The notes beneath the pieces are model-generated. The model had not been told where the DNA came from. It saw only the letters and a list, made by a program, of their open reading frames with translations, and did not search any database. From assembly GCA_012840395.1 (NCBI GenBank), contig DULL01000021.1:1-41503 (forward strand): DNA of 41,503 nt, read 5' to 3'. Each line of letters begins with the position of its first letter. Within the stretch, counting starts at the first letter, position 1. Of the stretch, positions 31,461-38,307 are shown in pieces. The position numbers were made by a program, and so were the translations under genes. Source of the stretch: Clostridiaceae bacterium. Lineage in GTDB: Bacteria > Bacillota > Clostridia > Acetivibrionales > DULL01.

Positions 31461-32534
31461 ATGATTAATTATGCAAATTTAATCTATAAAATAATAATAT
31501 TTTTTTGTTGTATTGCTGTTTTTATCTGCCAGGCTGATTTTAATATAAGTGTAACAACAGTACTTATGGCAACAATTTTCAGCGGATTTCTGGGTTACTT
31601 TGAAGGAGTTATACTTAGAATCGGATTATCATTGGGATTTATAATATTATGCTGCTTTGTTCCCGAGTTGACAATTTTTCTACCTCTGATTGTTTATGAT
31701 GTATTTCTATGTGAATATCAATATATTTTAATCTTAGGGATAATTCCCTTAGCGGTTTTTTCCCAAAATGTTTCTTTGCAGCATTTTTCTATTGTATTGA
31801 TTTTACTGGTACTTTGTTTATTAATCAAATACCTTGCAAAAATGGGATTTGACTTACAAATCAGATTTAACCAACTCCGGGATGAAACCCGGGAGATGTC
31901 TATTCGGCTTAAAAAACAAAACAGAGACCTGATAGAAAAACAGGATAACGAGATTTATTTAGCTGCAATAAATGAGCGAAACCGGATAGCGCGGGAAATC
32001 CATGATAATGTTGGACATTTGCTTTCAAGTGCTATTTTGCAGTCTGCCGCCCTTCTAACTATAAATAAAGATGAAAAAGTAAAAGAACATCTGAATACTT
32101 TGAATGAGACCTTGTCCCAGGCTATGAACAGTATAAGAAACAGTGTCCATGAATTGTATGATGAATCAATTGATTTGAATGCAAGAATTGAAGAACTGAT
32201 CAGAAAATTTGATTTTTGTGAATTGACCTATGAATATGATATAAGCAGCAATCCGGGCAGATCCCTGAAATATGCTTTTATTTCCATTGTAAAAGAGGCT
32301 TTATCCAATATAATGAAACATTCCAATGCAACCCATGTATATATTACATTCCGAGAACATCCCGGATTTTATCAGCTCATCATAAAAGATAACGGCATTG
32401 TAAAAAGATGGAGCAGGGATGAGGGATTGGGAATTAATAACATGATTGAAAGAGTGGAATCATTTAAAGGTAATATAAATATTAAGACGGAAAATGGTTT
32501 TGAGATATTTATCTCTATTCCTAAGGAGGTATAA
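31461..32534 (+). CDS. LiaS/DesK-like sensor histidine kinase
   Basis: A 357-residue kinase. About five N-terminal helices span residues 8-128, with almost no extracellular loops, followed by a short coiled linker. The HisKA_3 motif ERNRIAREIHDNVGHLLSS carries the phospho-acceptor His near residue 181. The HATPase_c domain is short, with VKEALSNIMKHSNATH and GLGINNM. Kinases with such membrane domains sense membrane or envelope state. The gene ends nine bases after the start of the AAGGAGG that serves the response regulator, and both are one operon. Confidence 0.88.
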   Translation: MINYANLIYKIIIFFCCIAVFICQADFNISVTTVLMATIFSGFLGYFEGVILRIGLSLGFIILCCFVPELTIFLPLIVYDVFLCEYQYILILGIIPLAVFSQNVSLQHFSIVLILLVLCLLIKYLAKMGFDLQIRFNQLRDETREMSIRLKKQNRDLIEKQDNEIYLAAINERNRIAREIHDNVGHLLSSAILQSAALLTINKDEKVKEHLNTLNETLSQAMNSIRNSVHELYDESIDLNARIEELIRKFDFCELTYEYDISSNPGRSLKYAFISIVKEALSNIMKHSNATHVYITFREHPGFYQLIIKDNGIVKRWSRDEGLGINNMIERVESFKGNINIKTENGFEIFISIPKEV

Positions 32535-32539
32535 AAAAC

Positions 32540-33175
32540 GTGAGAGTGTTGGTTGTGGATGATGATAAACTGGTAACTGCATCACTAAAGACCATATTGG
32601 AGGCAGATAATGATATTGAAGTAGTTGGAACAGGAAATAGCGGAAAACAGGCAGTTGATATGTATTTTGCTTTAAAACCTGATGTATTGCTGATGGATAT
32701 CAGAATGAACGGTATGACGGGAATAGAGGCTGCCGAAACTATAATTGATAGGGATAATAAAGCTAGAATACTTTTTCTGACAACTTTTTCGGATGATGAG
32801 TATATAGTGAAAGCTTTTCGTATAGGCGCTAAAGGATATATTCTAAAGCAGAATTTTGAAAGTATAAATTCATCGGTAAAAGCGGTTTATATGGGACAAA
32901 GAGTATTTGGTGATGAAATTATTACAAAAATACCCATACTGCTAAATGACAGTGCCGAAAAAGATACAGGTAAATCCAGAATGAATAATTTTAATTTAAG
33001 CCAAAGAGAAATTGAGATAATCACACAAGTAGCAAACGGATTATCAAACAGGGAGATTTCTGAAATGCTTTTCTTAAGTGAAGGAACTGTACGAAACTAT
33101 ATAAGTGCCATACTGGAAAAGCTTAACTTAAGGGACAGAACCCAGCTGGCAATTTTTTATTACAAAAATTTATAA
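32540..33175 (+). CDS. NarL/LiaR-like response regulator
   Basis: A 211-residue regulator with a receiver domain (DDD near residue 6, phospho-acceptor Asp near 54 in LLMDIRMNGMTG, Lys in GYILKQ) and a C-terminal LuxR-type helix-turn-helix (LSQREIEIITQVANGLSNRE, then GTVRNYISAIL). It starts at GTG, with AAGGAGG ten bases upstream, five bases after the kinase stop. Its targets are unknown. The nearest downstream transcription unit is the candidate RNA with a consensus promoter starting at 33214. Confidence 0.88.
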   Translation: MRVLVVDDDKLVTASLKTILEADNDIEVVGTGNSGKQAVDMYFALKPDVLLMDIRMNGMTGIEAAETIIDRDNKARILFLTTFSDDEYIVKAFRIGAKGYILKQNFESINSSVKAVYMGQRVFGDEIITKIPILLNDSAEKDTGKSRMNNFNLSQREIEIITQVANGLSNREISEMLFLSEGTVRNYISAILEKLNLRDRTQLAIFYYKNL

Positions 33176-33213
33176 CCATTGAACTATTGTAGTTAAAAAT
33201 TTAACAAAAAAGA

Positions 33214-33242
33214 TTGACAAAAATTTATCAATATGCTAATAT
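33214..33242 (+). promoter_or_regulatory. Consensus sigma-A promoter for the candidate RNA
   Basis: TTGACA (33214-33219), a 17-base spacer, and TAATAT (33237-33242). This is the best-formed sigma-A promoter in the window. It starts 39 bases after the response-regulator stop and predicts a transcript start near 33249. Confidence 0.8.
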
Positions 33243-33248
33243 GATATT

Positions 33249-33607
33249 GAACAGGATAGTACAACTGTTAATCGTACATCTAAGTGTGTCCTGCTAATTT
33301 TCACTATAACAAGAGTAATTGGGGAAGCACCCTAATGAAATTGATGATATAGATCATATAGATCAAAATATTATTGAATGACGGACCACAAGATTGACAA
33401 CAGAGCAGACAACAAAACGTACAACAAGCGGACAGCAAAAGGATGGATAAAATAAAGACAACAAGATTAACTACTGGATCGACAGTAAAACAGACAGAAT
33501 GAGAGACATAATGATGGACAAAATGCATAAAATTAATAGCACAACTAATTGTTGCTCCTGTTGTGCAAATAATTTTAAATTATTTGCACAACAGGAGCTT
33601 TCTTTTT
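33249..33607 (+). ncRNA. Candidate non-coding RNA or long leader with 12-base periodic repeats
   Basis: A stretch of about 360 bases runs from a consensus promoter to a very strong terminator, without a convincing gene. Near the 5' end CAGGA and TCCTG can close a stem around a GTAC/GTAC pair (about 33252-33298). From 33384 to 33528 GACA or GACC starts units close to 12 bases apart (33384, 33396, 33408, 33431, 33457, 33481, 33493, 33505, 33517). This section is A/C/G-rich, poor in T, and should be unpaired. GCACAAC at 33539-33545 could pair with the left arm of the terminator as an anti-terminator. Short frames inside (for example from ATG 33378, 25 codons) lack ribosome sites. No known RNA family was recognised. 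Confidence 0.5.
33554..33607 (+). terminator. Very strong intrinsic terminator
   Basis: The arms at 33554-33575 and 33577-33598 are perfect reverse complements of 22 bases around one central base, followed by CTTTCTTTTT. In practice the hairpin would be about 19 bp with a TTTTAAA loop. Confidence 0.9.
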
Positions 33608-33701: not shown

Positions 33702-33713
33702 TATACGCGTATA
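33702..33713. promoter_or_regulatory. Perfect 12-bp palindrome upstream of the lipoprotein gene
   Basis: TATACGCGTATA lies 34 bases before the lipoprotein ATG. It could be an operator, or chance. No protein is assigned. Confidence 0.35.
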
Positions 33714-33747: not shown

Positions 33748-34749
33748 ATGAAGTTGGTTTTTAACAAGATTTTTTTTAAAAAGATTATTCCTGCAGTTAT
33801 ATTAATTATTGCCATAACAGTTTCTGCGGCAGGAATGATAACGGGGTGTGCAGCCAGGGATAATCAAAAAGAAACAGGAACCAATATAGAGGATTCAACA
33901 GATAATTCATCGGAAAAACAAAATACTATTGAAAATAATGATAATGAACAAGATGATAAAGAAAATAAAATAATGGAAGAGTATAGGGGTTTGTTTTCAG
34001 GCAATTTTTCAATAAAGGAAATTGTAGAATTTATAGATAAAAATATTTCTCTTGTTTCGGATGAAAATGCAACTTTAATGGTTGATGAATTTGAGAAAAT
34101 GCAGAAAGAATACCTGTCTGAACTGGAAGAGAAATATAATAATGCTACAATACAAGAAGAGTTGGGCAAAAAATATTTATCTGATTTTGACATTAGTAAA
34201 ATAAACAAGATTGATGGCATTGAAAATGTTGGGTTAAGAGAGTTGTTAACTGAAACATTGGAAAGCGGGTATAAAGTAGAGACAGCAGAAGGGATGTTCT
34301 TTCCTGTCATAAACTATGAGTTTTATAAAAAATACAGTGATTATGTAACTTCCGACATCAAGGAATACATTGATATAATGGCGATTGAATCCAGTAATCC
34401 TCCTGCAAAGGATGCAGCTCTTGTAATTAGTTGGGAAGAAATACTGAACCGGGCATTAACCCAGGAGAAGTTCATAATCAAAAATGAAAGCTCAATAAGA
34501 ATTCAGGATATAAAAAACTTATATAATAAATATATGACATTTACCTTATTTGGCTTAAATAACACACCTTTGTTCACCTATGATACAAAGGCCATGGATC
34601 CTGAAGCAAAAGAAGTTTATTTAAGGGCAGTAGAAAAGGTAGAAGAAAGCAATTTCTTAAAAACATTAAAGGAGTATGTGGAATTACTAAAGAAGAATAA
34701 TTATAAGTTAACTGATGAAGTTGAACAGTTCAGGAAAGGTATTCTGTAG
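33748..34749 (+). CDS. Predicted lipoprotein of unknown function
   Basis: A 333-residue protein. It has a basic N-terminus, a hydrophobic core, and the lipobox ITGC with Cys34. An unstructured linker rich in Asp, Glu and Asn follows (about 38-75), then a mostly helical domain to the end. The linker suggests the domain is held away from the membrane. I recognise no family. GGAGAG precedes the ATG. It stands alone between two terminators, downstream of the candidate RNA and the LiaSR-like genes. It could be part of an envelope response, but that is only positional. Confidence 0.7.
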   Translation: MKLVFNKIFFKKIIPAVILIIAITVSAAGMITGCAARDNQKETGTNIEDSTDNSSEKQNTIENNDNEQDDKENKIMEEYRGLFSGNFSIKEIVEFIDKNISLVSDENATLMVDEFEKMQKEYLSELEEKYNNATIQEELGKKYLSDFDISKINKIDGIENVGLRELLTETLESGYKVETAEGMFFPVINYEFYKKYSDYVTSDIKEYIDIMAIESSNPPAKDAALVISWEEILNRALTQEKFIIKNESSIRIQDIKNLYNKYMTFTLFGLNNTPLFTYDTKAMDPEAKEVYLRAVEKVEESNFLKTLKEYVELLKKNNYKLTDEVEQFRKGIL

Positions 34750-35030: not shown

Positions 35031-35252
35031 ATGGCAAGAGCAGAATTTCAGTTAGAACCTTTGACCTGTCCGTCCTGTGCTAAAAAAATTGAAACTGTTT
35101 TGAGTAATACAAAAGGAATTGAATCAGCAAAAGTATTATTTAGCTCAAGTAAGGTGAAAGCAGAATTTGATGAATCGCAGATTGATGTAGAACAAATAAA
35201 GAAAACAATAGATAACTTAGGTTTTGAAGTATTATCCTCAAAAATGTCCTGA
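35031..35252 (+). CDS. HMA-domain metal-binding protein 1
   Basis: A 73-residue single HMA domain with the metal-binding CPSC at residues 13-16 (TCPSCAKKIE). The usual Met before the first Cys (GMxCxxC) is absent. It probably acts as a soluble metal chaperone for the P-type ATPase encoded downstream, which has no HMA domain of its own. GGGAGTG precedes the ATG. A terminator-like hairpin stands between this gene and the next, so it may be made in excess. Confidence 0.82.
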   Translation: MARAEFQLEPLTCPSCAKKIETVLSNTKGIESAKVLFSSSKVKAEFDESQIDVEQIKKTIDNLGFEVLSSKMS

Positions 35253-35281
35253 TCAGTTTTTAGTTATTTTATTTGAGAGGT

Positions 35282-35339
35282 GGTTTAGAAGTTATCTTAC
35301 AAAGATTTTTCTTTCGGATAATTTCTGAACCTTTTTTTT
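35282..35339 (+). terminator. Intrinsic terminator between the two HMA genes
   Basis: The arms 35282-35296 (GGTTTAGAAGTTATC) and 35317-35331 (GATAATTTCTGAACC) pair over 15 bases with two G-U pairs, followed by eight T at 35332-35339. Partial termination here would set the ratio between the small chaperone and the rest of the operon. Confidence 0.75.
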
Positions 35340-35400
35340 AATCAATGTTATTTTCTATAAATAATTATGATTATTTTTAAAAGCTTCGGAGGAATAAACA

Positions 35401-35658
35401 ATGCGAAAGATATTATTTGTATTAGAGCAGTTAGAATGCCCCAGCTGTTATAAAAGGATAGAAGATTGTCTTGGTAAACAAAGCGGTATTATTTCAGTAA
35501 CAGTATTACCTGCTCTTGGCAGAATAAGAACGGAATATGATGAAACAGAAATAAACGAAGAACAACTGGAAAGTCTTATATATAATTTGGGATATGTAAT
35601 AGAAGCTAAGAAAAAGCTTGAAAATGGAGAATTAAGGGTTTTAAAGCGTGAGAGTTAA
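35401..35658 (+). CDS. HMA-domain metal-binding protein 2
   Basis: An 85-residue HMA domain with CPSC at residues 13-16 (ECPSCYKRIE) and a short basic tail. It is clearly paralogous to the first HMA protein, but diverged in the loop after the motif (Tyr for Ala). It lies 95 bp before the ATPase gene. GGAGG precedes the ATG. A likely metal donor or regulator of the ATPase. The metal cannot be told. Confidence 0.82.
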   Translation: MRKILFVLEQLECPSCYKRIEDCLGKQSGIISVTVLPALGRIRTEYDETEINEEQLESLIYNLGYVIEAKKKLENGELRVLKRES

Positions 35659-35753
35659 AAGTCAGAGGAGAATTAAGGATAGAATTACGGTGTAAGAAAT
35701 AATAAGCAGGAGATCAAAACTGTAAGCTGAATTATAAAAGGATGTGATATAAA

Positions 35754-37652
35754 ATGTTAAAATATATTAATAAACATAAAAATCATATTACTTTATTTTC
35801 AGGAATATTCATTGCTGCAGGTTTTGCGCTTTCCTTTACAGGTAATATATATTTGAAAGATATTTTTTTAATAATAGCAACAATAGCTGCCGGAACACCT
35901 ATTGCAATAAAAGCCTTCCAGGCCCTTCGCATGAGGGCATTCAGCATTGAGTTATTGGTAACTATAGCAGTAATCGGGGCTTTGTATCTTCGTGAGTATA
36001 CCGAGTCTTCCGTAGTAGGTTTTCTCTTTTTGTTCGGAGATTATCTTGAAGCCCGCACGCTGGAAAAAACGCGTTCTTCGCTTAAAACATTAATAGATAT
36101 GGCTCCGCAGGAAGCAATAGTTATTCGAGAAGGTCAAACAATAACTATTCCTGTTGAAGAAGTAGTAAAAGGTGATAGGGTAATTATCAAAGCAGGCGGA
36201 AAGGTACCTGTGGATGGTAAAATAGTATCGGGTAGGGCTTTATTGAATGAAGCCGCTGTTACAGGCGAATCTGTGCCTGTTTCAAAAAGTGTTGATGATA
36301 AAGTTTTTAGTGGTACAATTGTAGATAACGGTTATATAGAAATTATCGCTGAAAAAGTTGGGGATGACACTACTTTTGCCAGAATAATTGAACTTGTGGA
36401 AGAAGCACAGGAATCTAAAACAAAAACTGAAAAATTCCTGGATAAATTTGCAAATATCTATACACCGTCGATTGTTGTATTGTCAATCCTGGTATATATT
36501 ATTACGAGAAATCTCCATATTGCAATTACTTTTCTTGTGGTTGCCTGCCCTGGCGCCCTGGTAATAGGTGCTCCTGTATCTAATGTGGCTGGAATAGGAA
36601 ATGGCGCAAGAAATGGTGTTCTAATTAAGGGCGGGGAAGTTATGGACAGATTATCCAGGGTTACTGCAGTTGTATTTGATAAAACCGGTACTTTAACAAA
36701 AGGAAAGCCTGAAGTTACTGAAATAAAAGTTTTTAATAATATGAATGGAATTAGTATAGACCCAAATGAGTTGTTAAGGTTGGCTGCTGAAGTTGAAACA
36801 ATTTCTGAACATCATTTAGGCCATACAATTGTTAAAGAAGCAGAGGCAAGGAATTTAAACATCAAAGGTGAAGTGACGGAGGGGGAAATAATTAAGGGTA
36901 ATGGTATTCGTGGAAAAGTCGGCAGCCATGTTATAACTATTGGAAACCGGAAGATGATGAATACTGAAAAAATAGCCATTCCGGATGAAGTGTCAGATTA
37001 TGCGGTAAAGCAGGAGAAAGTAGGTAATACTGCAATATTTACAGCCATAGACGGAAAGGTTGCAGGAATAATATCAATAGCCGACCAAATCCGGGAAGAT
37101 GCCAATTTAGCTTTGTCAGAATTGAGGAGAAACGGTGTTAAAAGAATTATCATGCTCACAGGAGATAACAGGCACACTGCTGAACTAGTTGCAAAACAAC
37201 TTGGCTTATATGAATTCCATGCAGAATTATTGCCTGAAGATAAAGTGGAGTTTATAAAGGAATTGAAGAAAGAAGGGCATGTAGTGGCAATGGCGGGAGA
37301 TGGAATAAATGATGCTCCTGCAATTGCTACAGCTGATATAGGTCTGGCCATGGGTGAAGGGGGTACGGATGTATCAATGGAGACTGCCGATGTAGTACTT
37401 ATGGCCGATAAATTAATACAATTTTCCCATGCGTACTCTCTTTCAAAAGCTACCATAAGAAACATGAAACAGAATACATTTTTTGCCGTGGCAATTGTAT
37501 TTATACTGCTGGCGGGAGTATTATCAGAGAATGTCCACCTGGCGTCAGGTATGTTTATTCACGAAGCCAGTGTATTGGCGGTAATACTGAATGCCATGCG
37601 GTTAATAGGATTTAACAGCAAGGGCAGAAAGGGGAGGAATACAGTTGCATAA
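35754..37652 (+). CDS. P1B-like heavy-metal P-type ATPase with CPG and HH variants
   Basis: A 632-residue membrane metal pump without an N-terminal HMA domain. It has about eight helices, the actuator motif TGES, the phosphorylated Asp309 in DKTGTLTKG, and the hinge GDGINDAPAIA. Two P1B hallmarks differ. The membrane metal site, normally CPC, reads CPG (Cys265-Gly267), and the nucleotide-domain HP of SEHPL reads SEHHLGH (His353-His354). Both changes suggest a distinct subfamily whose metal may not be Cd/Zn/Cu as automatic annotation would say. It is preceded by two free HMA proteins and overlaps the Crp/Fnr gene by eight bases. Confidence 0.85.
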   Translation: MLKYINKHKNHITLFSGIFIAAGFALSFTGNIYLKDIFLIIATIAAGTPIAIKAFQALRMRAFSIELLVTIAVIGALYLREYTESSVVGFLFLFGDYLEARTLEKTRSSLKTLIDMAPQEAIVIREGQTITIPVEEVVKGDRVIIKAGGKVPVDGKIVSGRALLNEAAVTGESVPVSKSVDDKVFSGTIVDNGYIEIIAEKVGDDTTFARIIELVEEAQESKTKTEKFLDKFANIYTPSIVVLSILVYIITRNLHIAITFLVVACPGALVIGAPVSNVAGIGNGARNGVLIKGGEVMDRLSRVTAVVFDKTGTLTKGKPEVTEIKVFNNMNGISIDPNELLRLAAEVETISEHHLGHTIVKEAEARNLNIKGEVTEGEIIKGNGIRGKVGSHVITIGNRKMMNTEKIAIPDEVSDYAVKQEKVGNTAIFTAIDGKVAGIISIADQIREDANLALSELRRNGVKRIIMLTGDNRHTAELVAKQLGLYEFHAELLPEDKVEFIKELKKEGHVVAMAGDGINDAPAIATADIGLAMGEGGTDVSMETADVVLMADKLIQFSHAYSLSKATIRNMKQNTFFAVAIVFILLAGVLSENVHLASGMFIHEASVLAVILNAMRLIGFNSKGRKGRNTVA

Positions 37653-38307
37653 ATCATGTATAACTCTGGTACCAATATTTAACCATTTGGAAGCTGAACA
37701 AATGGATGAGATTATGAAAACGGTAAAATCACGCTCCTTTAAAAGAGGAGAACTGATTTATAGGGCCGGGGATCATTCAGATTCACTTTATATAGTAAAC
37801 AGTGGAAAAATAAAGATTTACCGCCTCTCTGAATCAGGAAAGGAACAATTAGTACGTATTCTTAATCCGGGGGATTTTACGGGAGAATTGGCTTTGTTTA
37901 GTCAATCGGTTCATGAATCATATGCAGAAGCTATGGAGGACACCAAGATATGTATTATTACCCGTTCTGACTTGCAGGAATTTTTAATGAAATATCCCTC
38001 TATTTCATTGAAATTTCTTGCCGAATTTTCCAGGAGACTTGAAAAATCGGAAAAACAAACAGCCAGAGTTTCTACTGAAAAGGTTGAAACCCGGTTGGCT
38101 CTTTTTTTGGCTGAATGTGTTACCAGCAGTGAAGGTCCGATGGAATTTGTATTGCCAATGAGCAGAAAAGATCTTGCTTCTTATCTGGGTACCACTCCCG
38201 AAACTATAAGCAGGAAACTGGCTGAATTTGAGGACGCAGGATATATCAAACAAAAAAAAGGCAGGAAAATTGAAATTTTAGATTTAGACGGAATGTTGCT
38301 TGTTTAA
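37645..38307 (+). CDS. Crp/Fnr family regulator (Flp/FNR-like)
   Basis: A 220-residue regulator. It has an N-terminal cyclic-nucleotide-binding-like barrel (about 15-130), a long dimer helix, and a C-terminal winged helix with MSRKDLASYLGTTPETISRK. Glu186, Ser189 and Arg190 match the FNR recognition helix, which reads TTGAT-N4-ATCAA; exactly such a site lies upstream of this operon. There is no N-terminal four-Cys cluster as in E. coli FNR; a lone Cys5 is present. It starts at TTG with GGGGAGG upstream, overlapping the ATPase gene. The arrangement recalls the Lactococcus flp operons, where an FNR-like protein follows metal-transport genes. Confidence 0.87.
   Translation: MHKSCITLVPIFNHLEAEQMDEIMKTVKSRSFKRGELIYRAGDHSDSLYIVNSGKIKIYRLSESGKEQLVRILNPGDFTGELALFSQSVHESYAEAMEDTKICIITRSDLQEFLMKYPSISLKFLAEFSRRLEKSEKQTARVSTEKVETRLALFLAECVTSSEGPMEFVLPMSRKDLASYLGTTPETISRKLAEFEDAGYIKQKKGRKIEILDLDGMLLV

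Follow-up and report, generated by a model that had tools for sequence, protein, structure and literature searches.

Candidate Rex-Controlled RNA Gene Behind a Two-Component System

On contig DULL01000021.1 of the Clostridiaceae bacterium assembly GCA_012840395.1, a stretch flanked by a two-component system and a lipoprotein gene is read here, with slightly better than even confidence, as a stand-alone non-coding unit of ~359 nt under a Rex-repressed promoter; its product would most likely be a regulatory RNA that acts in trans on redox metabolism. The regulatory role of the RNA is the weakest step of this reading and is proposed only tentatively. The DNA analysed (all 41,503 nt of the contig, hereafter the window) contains tandem Rex-like boxes, a promoter, a repeat body and a terminator without an ORF between them, and the genome carries a Rex gene; from these we infer that Rex binds and that the unit is transcribed, and likewise any function that its RNA may have. 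A first-pass annotation of the same DNA had already proposed an independent RNA gene at this place. That proposal still is the best reading and gains the tandem boxes, a putative control element new here that the annotation had missed; its alternative, a decayed repeat gene, is also alive. The features on which the argument rests are the following:

31461..32534, plus strand: sensor histidine kinase gene (HisKA_3 and HATPase_c, Pfam), 5' neighbour of the candidate RNA unit
32540..33175, plus strand: NarL/FixJ-type response regulator gene (Response_reg and GerE, Pfam), 5' neighbour
33190..33207, no strand assigned: Rex-like box 1, TAGTTAAAAATTTAACAA, one mismatch to TTGTTAANNNNTTAACAA, rank 4 of 841,290 with the position weight matrix (PWM)
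33214..33231, no strand assigned: Rex-like box 2, TTGACAAAAATTTATCAA, three mismatches, over the -35, PWM rank 12 of 841,290
33214..33242, plus strand: promoter, -35 TTGACA (33214-33219), 17-nt spacer with TG, -10 TAATAT (33237-33242), consensus scan
33249..33607, plus strand: putative non-coding transcript of ~359 nt, from the promoter and terminator, with no spanning ORF and no Rfam family
33252..33293, plus strand: predicted 5' stem CAGGAUA...UGUCCUG (RNAfold)
33318..33336, plus strand: predicted hairpin UUGGGG...CCCUAA (RNAfold)
33341..33377, plus strand: predicted A/U-rich hairpin (RNAfold)
33384..33528, plus strand: T-poor body of degenerate 12-nt units, consensus about GACAACAARAYD (autocorrelation and reading of the frames)
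33554..33607, plus strand: intrinsic terminator, palindrome 33554-33598 and T tract 33599-33607 (scan and RNAfold)
33748..34749, plus strand: lipoprotein gene 3' of the element, with homologs in 23 of 58 genomes of the order

Promoter, Terminator and Predicted Fold

The element is single-copy in the genome. A consensus scan located the promoter at 33214-33242, as had been claimed, with a score of 10 out of 12 and a TG before the -10 (extended -10), although matches of such quality are not rare alone (14 in 2 kb versus 10.6 ± 3.2 expected). Transcription would start near 33249. The terminator described at the end of the element is also present: its near-perfect palindrome spans 45 bases, 21 bp are paired by RNAfold, and the scan gave two terminator-like rows, both from this single structure, versus 0.7 expected. 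In RNAfold the 5' domain as a whole is slightly more stable than its shuffles (z = -1.4), the transcript minus the terminator folds weakly better than shuffles (z = -1.9) and the repeat body is predicted to be unstructured (z = -0.3).

Tandem Rex-Like Boxes

Relatives gave weak DNA matches to the promoter, one of which lies 5' of a gene (locus L005) that we take to be adhE from reading it, not from a search. These matches led to the Clostridiaceae Rex consensus TTGTTAANNNNTTAACAA, which is documented for clostridia (PMC8457756). A strict degenerate pattern, TTGWYAAWWWWTTWRCAA, was too narrow and had no match; the search was then made with the published consensus, mismatches being allowed. The 2.84-Mb genome has only four sites with at most one mismatch to this consensus: box 1, the sole perfect site, which lies 5' of an operon with DRTGG, ATPase and [FeFe]-hydrogenase-like genes, one intergenic site and one site within a gene. 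When up to three mismatches are allowed, the window holds 11 Rex-like sites versus 10.2 expected, which is no excess; it is therefore box 1, together with the arrangement of the boxes as a pair, that carries the weight of the case for Rex.

To rank the boxes, a PWM was made from five other sites (three hydrogenase-type promoters of this genome, one of a relative, G022, and that of the presumed adhE), which were picked with guidance from their context, and 841,290 positions of this genome were scored with it. Sites scoring at least 13.9 were taken as equally strong. Only two pairs of such sites lie 18-32 nt apart, one at this promoter and one at the promoter of a NuoE/HoxE-like/hydrogenase operon on contig C85, the latter having been in the training set. 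Shuffles of 33176-33250 contained a single site this strong in 0.015% of cases and a pair in 0 of 20,000. Rex itself is encoded in the genome (344 bits versus a cut-off of 233), and the position of box 2, which covers the -35, fits repression. As a further observation, three overlapping GTTAAAT/ATTAAC palindromes 14 nt apart, with high Rex-matrix scores, were found at L209 (G000:C61, 130-175).

The same operator type occurs at Rex-type hydrogenase promoters of this genome (C85:15699/15720 and C66:76520). The C85 promoter likewise has a tandem pair, spaced by 21 nt versus 24 nt here, but the boxes on C85 and C66 precede NuoE/HoxE-like and [FeFe]-hydrogenase-like operons, whereas no gene follows here.

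A 12-Nucleotide Repeat Body in Three Frames

The body consists of 50% A and 12% T. The nine GAC unit starts that had been listed for it are all in place, with steps of 12, 12, 23, 26, 24, 12, 12 and 12 nt, five of the eight being exactly 12. The identity autocorrelation at lag 12 is 0.52 over 33381-33535. Across lags 4 to 40, not one of 5000 dinucleotide shuffles came up to this value, which is also the strongest among 4135 windows scanned in the 41.5 kb; the 12-base period noted in the first pass is thus far above chance. Translated over three frames, the units give DHKI-DNRA-DNKT-YNKR, DSKR-MDKI and DNKI-NYWI-DSKT-DRMR-DIMM-DKMH, and the repeat thus reads as D-x-K-x tetrapeptides divided among the three frames. 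With stops in these frames no ORF crosses the body: the longest stop-free run is 34 codons versus a shuffle mean of 36 (p = 0.56), in agreement with the earlier view that the element holds no convincing gene. The suggestion that the A/C-rich track could bind Hfq found no support, since ARN triplets in it occur at the chance level (4 versus 4.0 expected, p = 0.56), despite the fact that Hfq, like CsrA, is encoded in the genome.

Homology and Family Searches

Rfam returned no family at the gathering score, and only chance hairpin matches at E-values up to 5. The homology search in related clostridia that the first-pass annotation had proposed yielded no homolog at the DNA level, neither in 60 relatives nor in 391 genomes of the class (~450 genomes), only short A/T-rich matches that were mostly to the promoter/operator; the window genome is the sole member of its family among the genomes searched, and at these distances such a search would miss a fast-changing RNA. 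A 33-nt match in genome G277, considered as a homolog, is A/T-rich and was taken as chance, and phage and plasmid records gave promoter-like chance matches alone. None of ~85 loci behind the orthologous response regulator contained a similar element. At one locus (L053, G006:C15, minus strand, ~536-821) T-poor, A-rich degenerate repeats of ~41 nt lie directly behind the orthologous response regulator, without similarity to this element.

Rex-type promoters are found 3' of this two-component system in two genomes, the window genome and G022. In G022 (L050, G022:C123, ~2200-2800), Rex-type boxes and a NuoE/HoxE-like gene lie behind the orthologous kinase-regulator pair. The idea that the element is a relic of a Rex-controlled hydrogenase operon was rejected, as the G022 promoter, on visual comparison, is like the C85 promoter of the window genome and not like this one.

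Alternative Explanations

The next best reading after a Rex-repressed RNA is a broken repeat gene whose signals survive: on this view a Rex-controlled small gene once encoded some 12 or more D-x-K-x repeats and lost its frame to small indels near 33430 and 33455, which would leave the RNA inert. We consider this rather unlikely, but it has gained support since it was raised in the first pass. Units resembling D-N-K-I occur in all three registers. Moreover, an 832-kb sample (~29% of the 2.84-Mb genome) contains 14 windows as T-poor and A-rich as the body, which is one of them; the remaining 13 are located wholly or mostly within same-strand ORFs, so that the body has the composition of a strand coding for hydrophilic repeats. 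In a relative (L009, G044:C140, minus strand, ~1435-1783) an intact ORF of ~28 NERH/NERQ tetrapeptide repeats of 12 nt runs in frame into a lipoprotein signal and lipoprotein, right behind a histidine kinase gene; this array is analogous only, as no homolog of the repeat sequence of the window was found in the genomes searched. Such repeat ORFs of relatives, including the EKNK/TEKN-like N-terminus at L014, share the T-poor strand and the 12-nt period with the element, but they have an open frame, while the element has its units in three frames and no start site. The lack of an ORF across the repeats is joined by the lack of a fitting ribosome-binding site or start, and the stop-free length is at the chance level given above. 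Asp is encoded by GAC in 8 of 8 D-initial units versus 27 of 116 Asp codons in the genes of the window, a point weakened by the shared ancestry of the units, and an intact promoter, operators and a near-perfect terminator would be odd for a dead gene. The two readings are not cleanly separated, and both may be true if the element is a former gene with a surviving transcript.

That the stretch is no transcript unit at all but a random A/G-rich expansion, produced by replication slippage between two unrelated signals, we consider improbable: short T-poor tandem arrays do occur near gene starts in relatives (L014 and L139), but here the array is exactly framed by tandem Rex boxes, an extended promoter and the near-perfect terminator. 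The array at L014 (G008:C24, minus strand, ~2819-2943) consists of apparently non-coding T-poor 12-nt repeats with AGGAGGAA-like (Shine-Dalgarno-like) motifs, and the gene just 3' of it is presumably an AraC-type regulator. Equally little probability is given to a leader of the lipoprotein gene with attenuation at the terminator, in which GCACAAC at 33539 or the 5' AACAGGA would act as anti-terminator. The lipoprotein gene is on the same strand, with 140 nt from the terminator to its start codon, and GCACAAC and AACAGGA, as read from the sequence, can pair with the 5' arm of the terminator. However, such pairing would comprise ~7 bp against the competing 21 bp, all 14 homologous lipoprotein loci examined have neither a strong Rex box nor a 12-nt array upstream, and no known leader family was found in Rfam. 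The GCACAAC motif named in the first pass is present, but an anti-terminator role for it is unlikely on account of the 7 versus 21 bp and of the relatives that have the lipoprotein gene without the element. Still less probable is a decoy RNA that sequesters CsrA through the GGA motifs of its open track. CsrA is encoded, a NarL/FixJ-type regulator adjoins, and GGA occurs 9 times versus 5.4 expected (p = 0.019), but the stricter ANGGA is not significant (p = 0.15), GGA is a by-product of the repeat composition, its placement in hairpin loops is only putative, and a CsrB-type match is absent in Rfam.

Proposed Mechanism and Relation to Known Systems

For the Rex-repressed RNA, the proposed course follows the established mechanism of Rex, which governs fermentation in clostridia and is bound to DNA at low NADH and released as the NADH/NAD+ ratio rises. 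At low NADH, Rex would occupy both boxes (33190-33207, and 33214-33231 over the -35). With a rising NADH/NAD+ ratio it would leave the promoter, upon which RNA polymerase would initiate near 33249 and be halted by the 21-bp terminator. The resulting RNA would consist of a folded 5' domain followed by a long A/G-rich repeat track that stays unfolded, with the terminator hairpin at its end; it might act in trans on redox metabolism in a RoxS-like manner.

The sRNA RoxS of B. subtilis is under direct Rex repression and responds to malate via release from Rex, and RoxS/RsaE is known as a Rex-controlled sRNA of Bacillus and Staphylococcus; the Rex site of RoxS lies just 3' of the start, whereas the boxes here lie upstream and over the -35 (PMC5419742). 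The likeness, judged here by sequence, is that of a short terminated RNA gene with a Rex-type operator at its promoter; in contrast to RoxS/RsaE, the track of the element is purine-rich and T-poor, and no RoxS/RsaE match was obtained in Rfam, at the gathering score or at E-values up to 5. RoxS is also much shorter than the ~359 nt of this element. If Rex binds, the element would be RoxS-like in control, but it does not belong to the RoxS family. More speculatively, and in our view distinctly unlikely as a whole, it would be a Rex-controlled clostridial RNA unrelated in sequence to RoxS, whose active part, the long unfolded 12-nt repeat track, serves at high NADH to attract an RNA-binding protein or to titrate out another RNA, and which descends from a tetrapeptide-repeat gene still transcribed after the loss of its frame. 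If the element is transcribed and obeys Rex, this would imply that NADH control of small RNAs arose separately in clostridia; should the body descend from a repeat gene, the element would exemplify how a coding gene becomes an RNA gene, or how it dies.

Flanking Genes

A two-component system does lie 5' of the element, but the label LiaSR-like given to it is loose, since the LiaS model is outscored for the kinase by the MctS, UhpB and NarX/NarQ models, all far below their cut-offs. Orthologs of the kinase in relatives have 44-67% identity (up to 60% in a scan of genome contigs). On the 3' side, the lipoprotein gene is probably a transcription unit separate from the RNA element. Its product of 333 aa belongs to a family without a Pfam model, the best homologs having 54-56% identity, and no homologs were found in viral contigs. 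A perfect 12-bp palindrome, TATACGCGTATA, at 33702-33713, ~35 bases 5' of the lipoprotein start, is possibly an operator. Further 3', a cluster at 35031-38307 encodes two small HMA-domain proteins, a P-type metal ATPase and what we take, by reading alone, to be a Crp/Fnr-like regulator.
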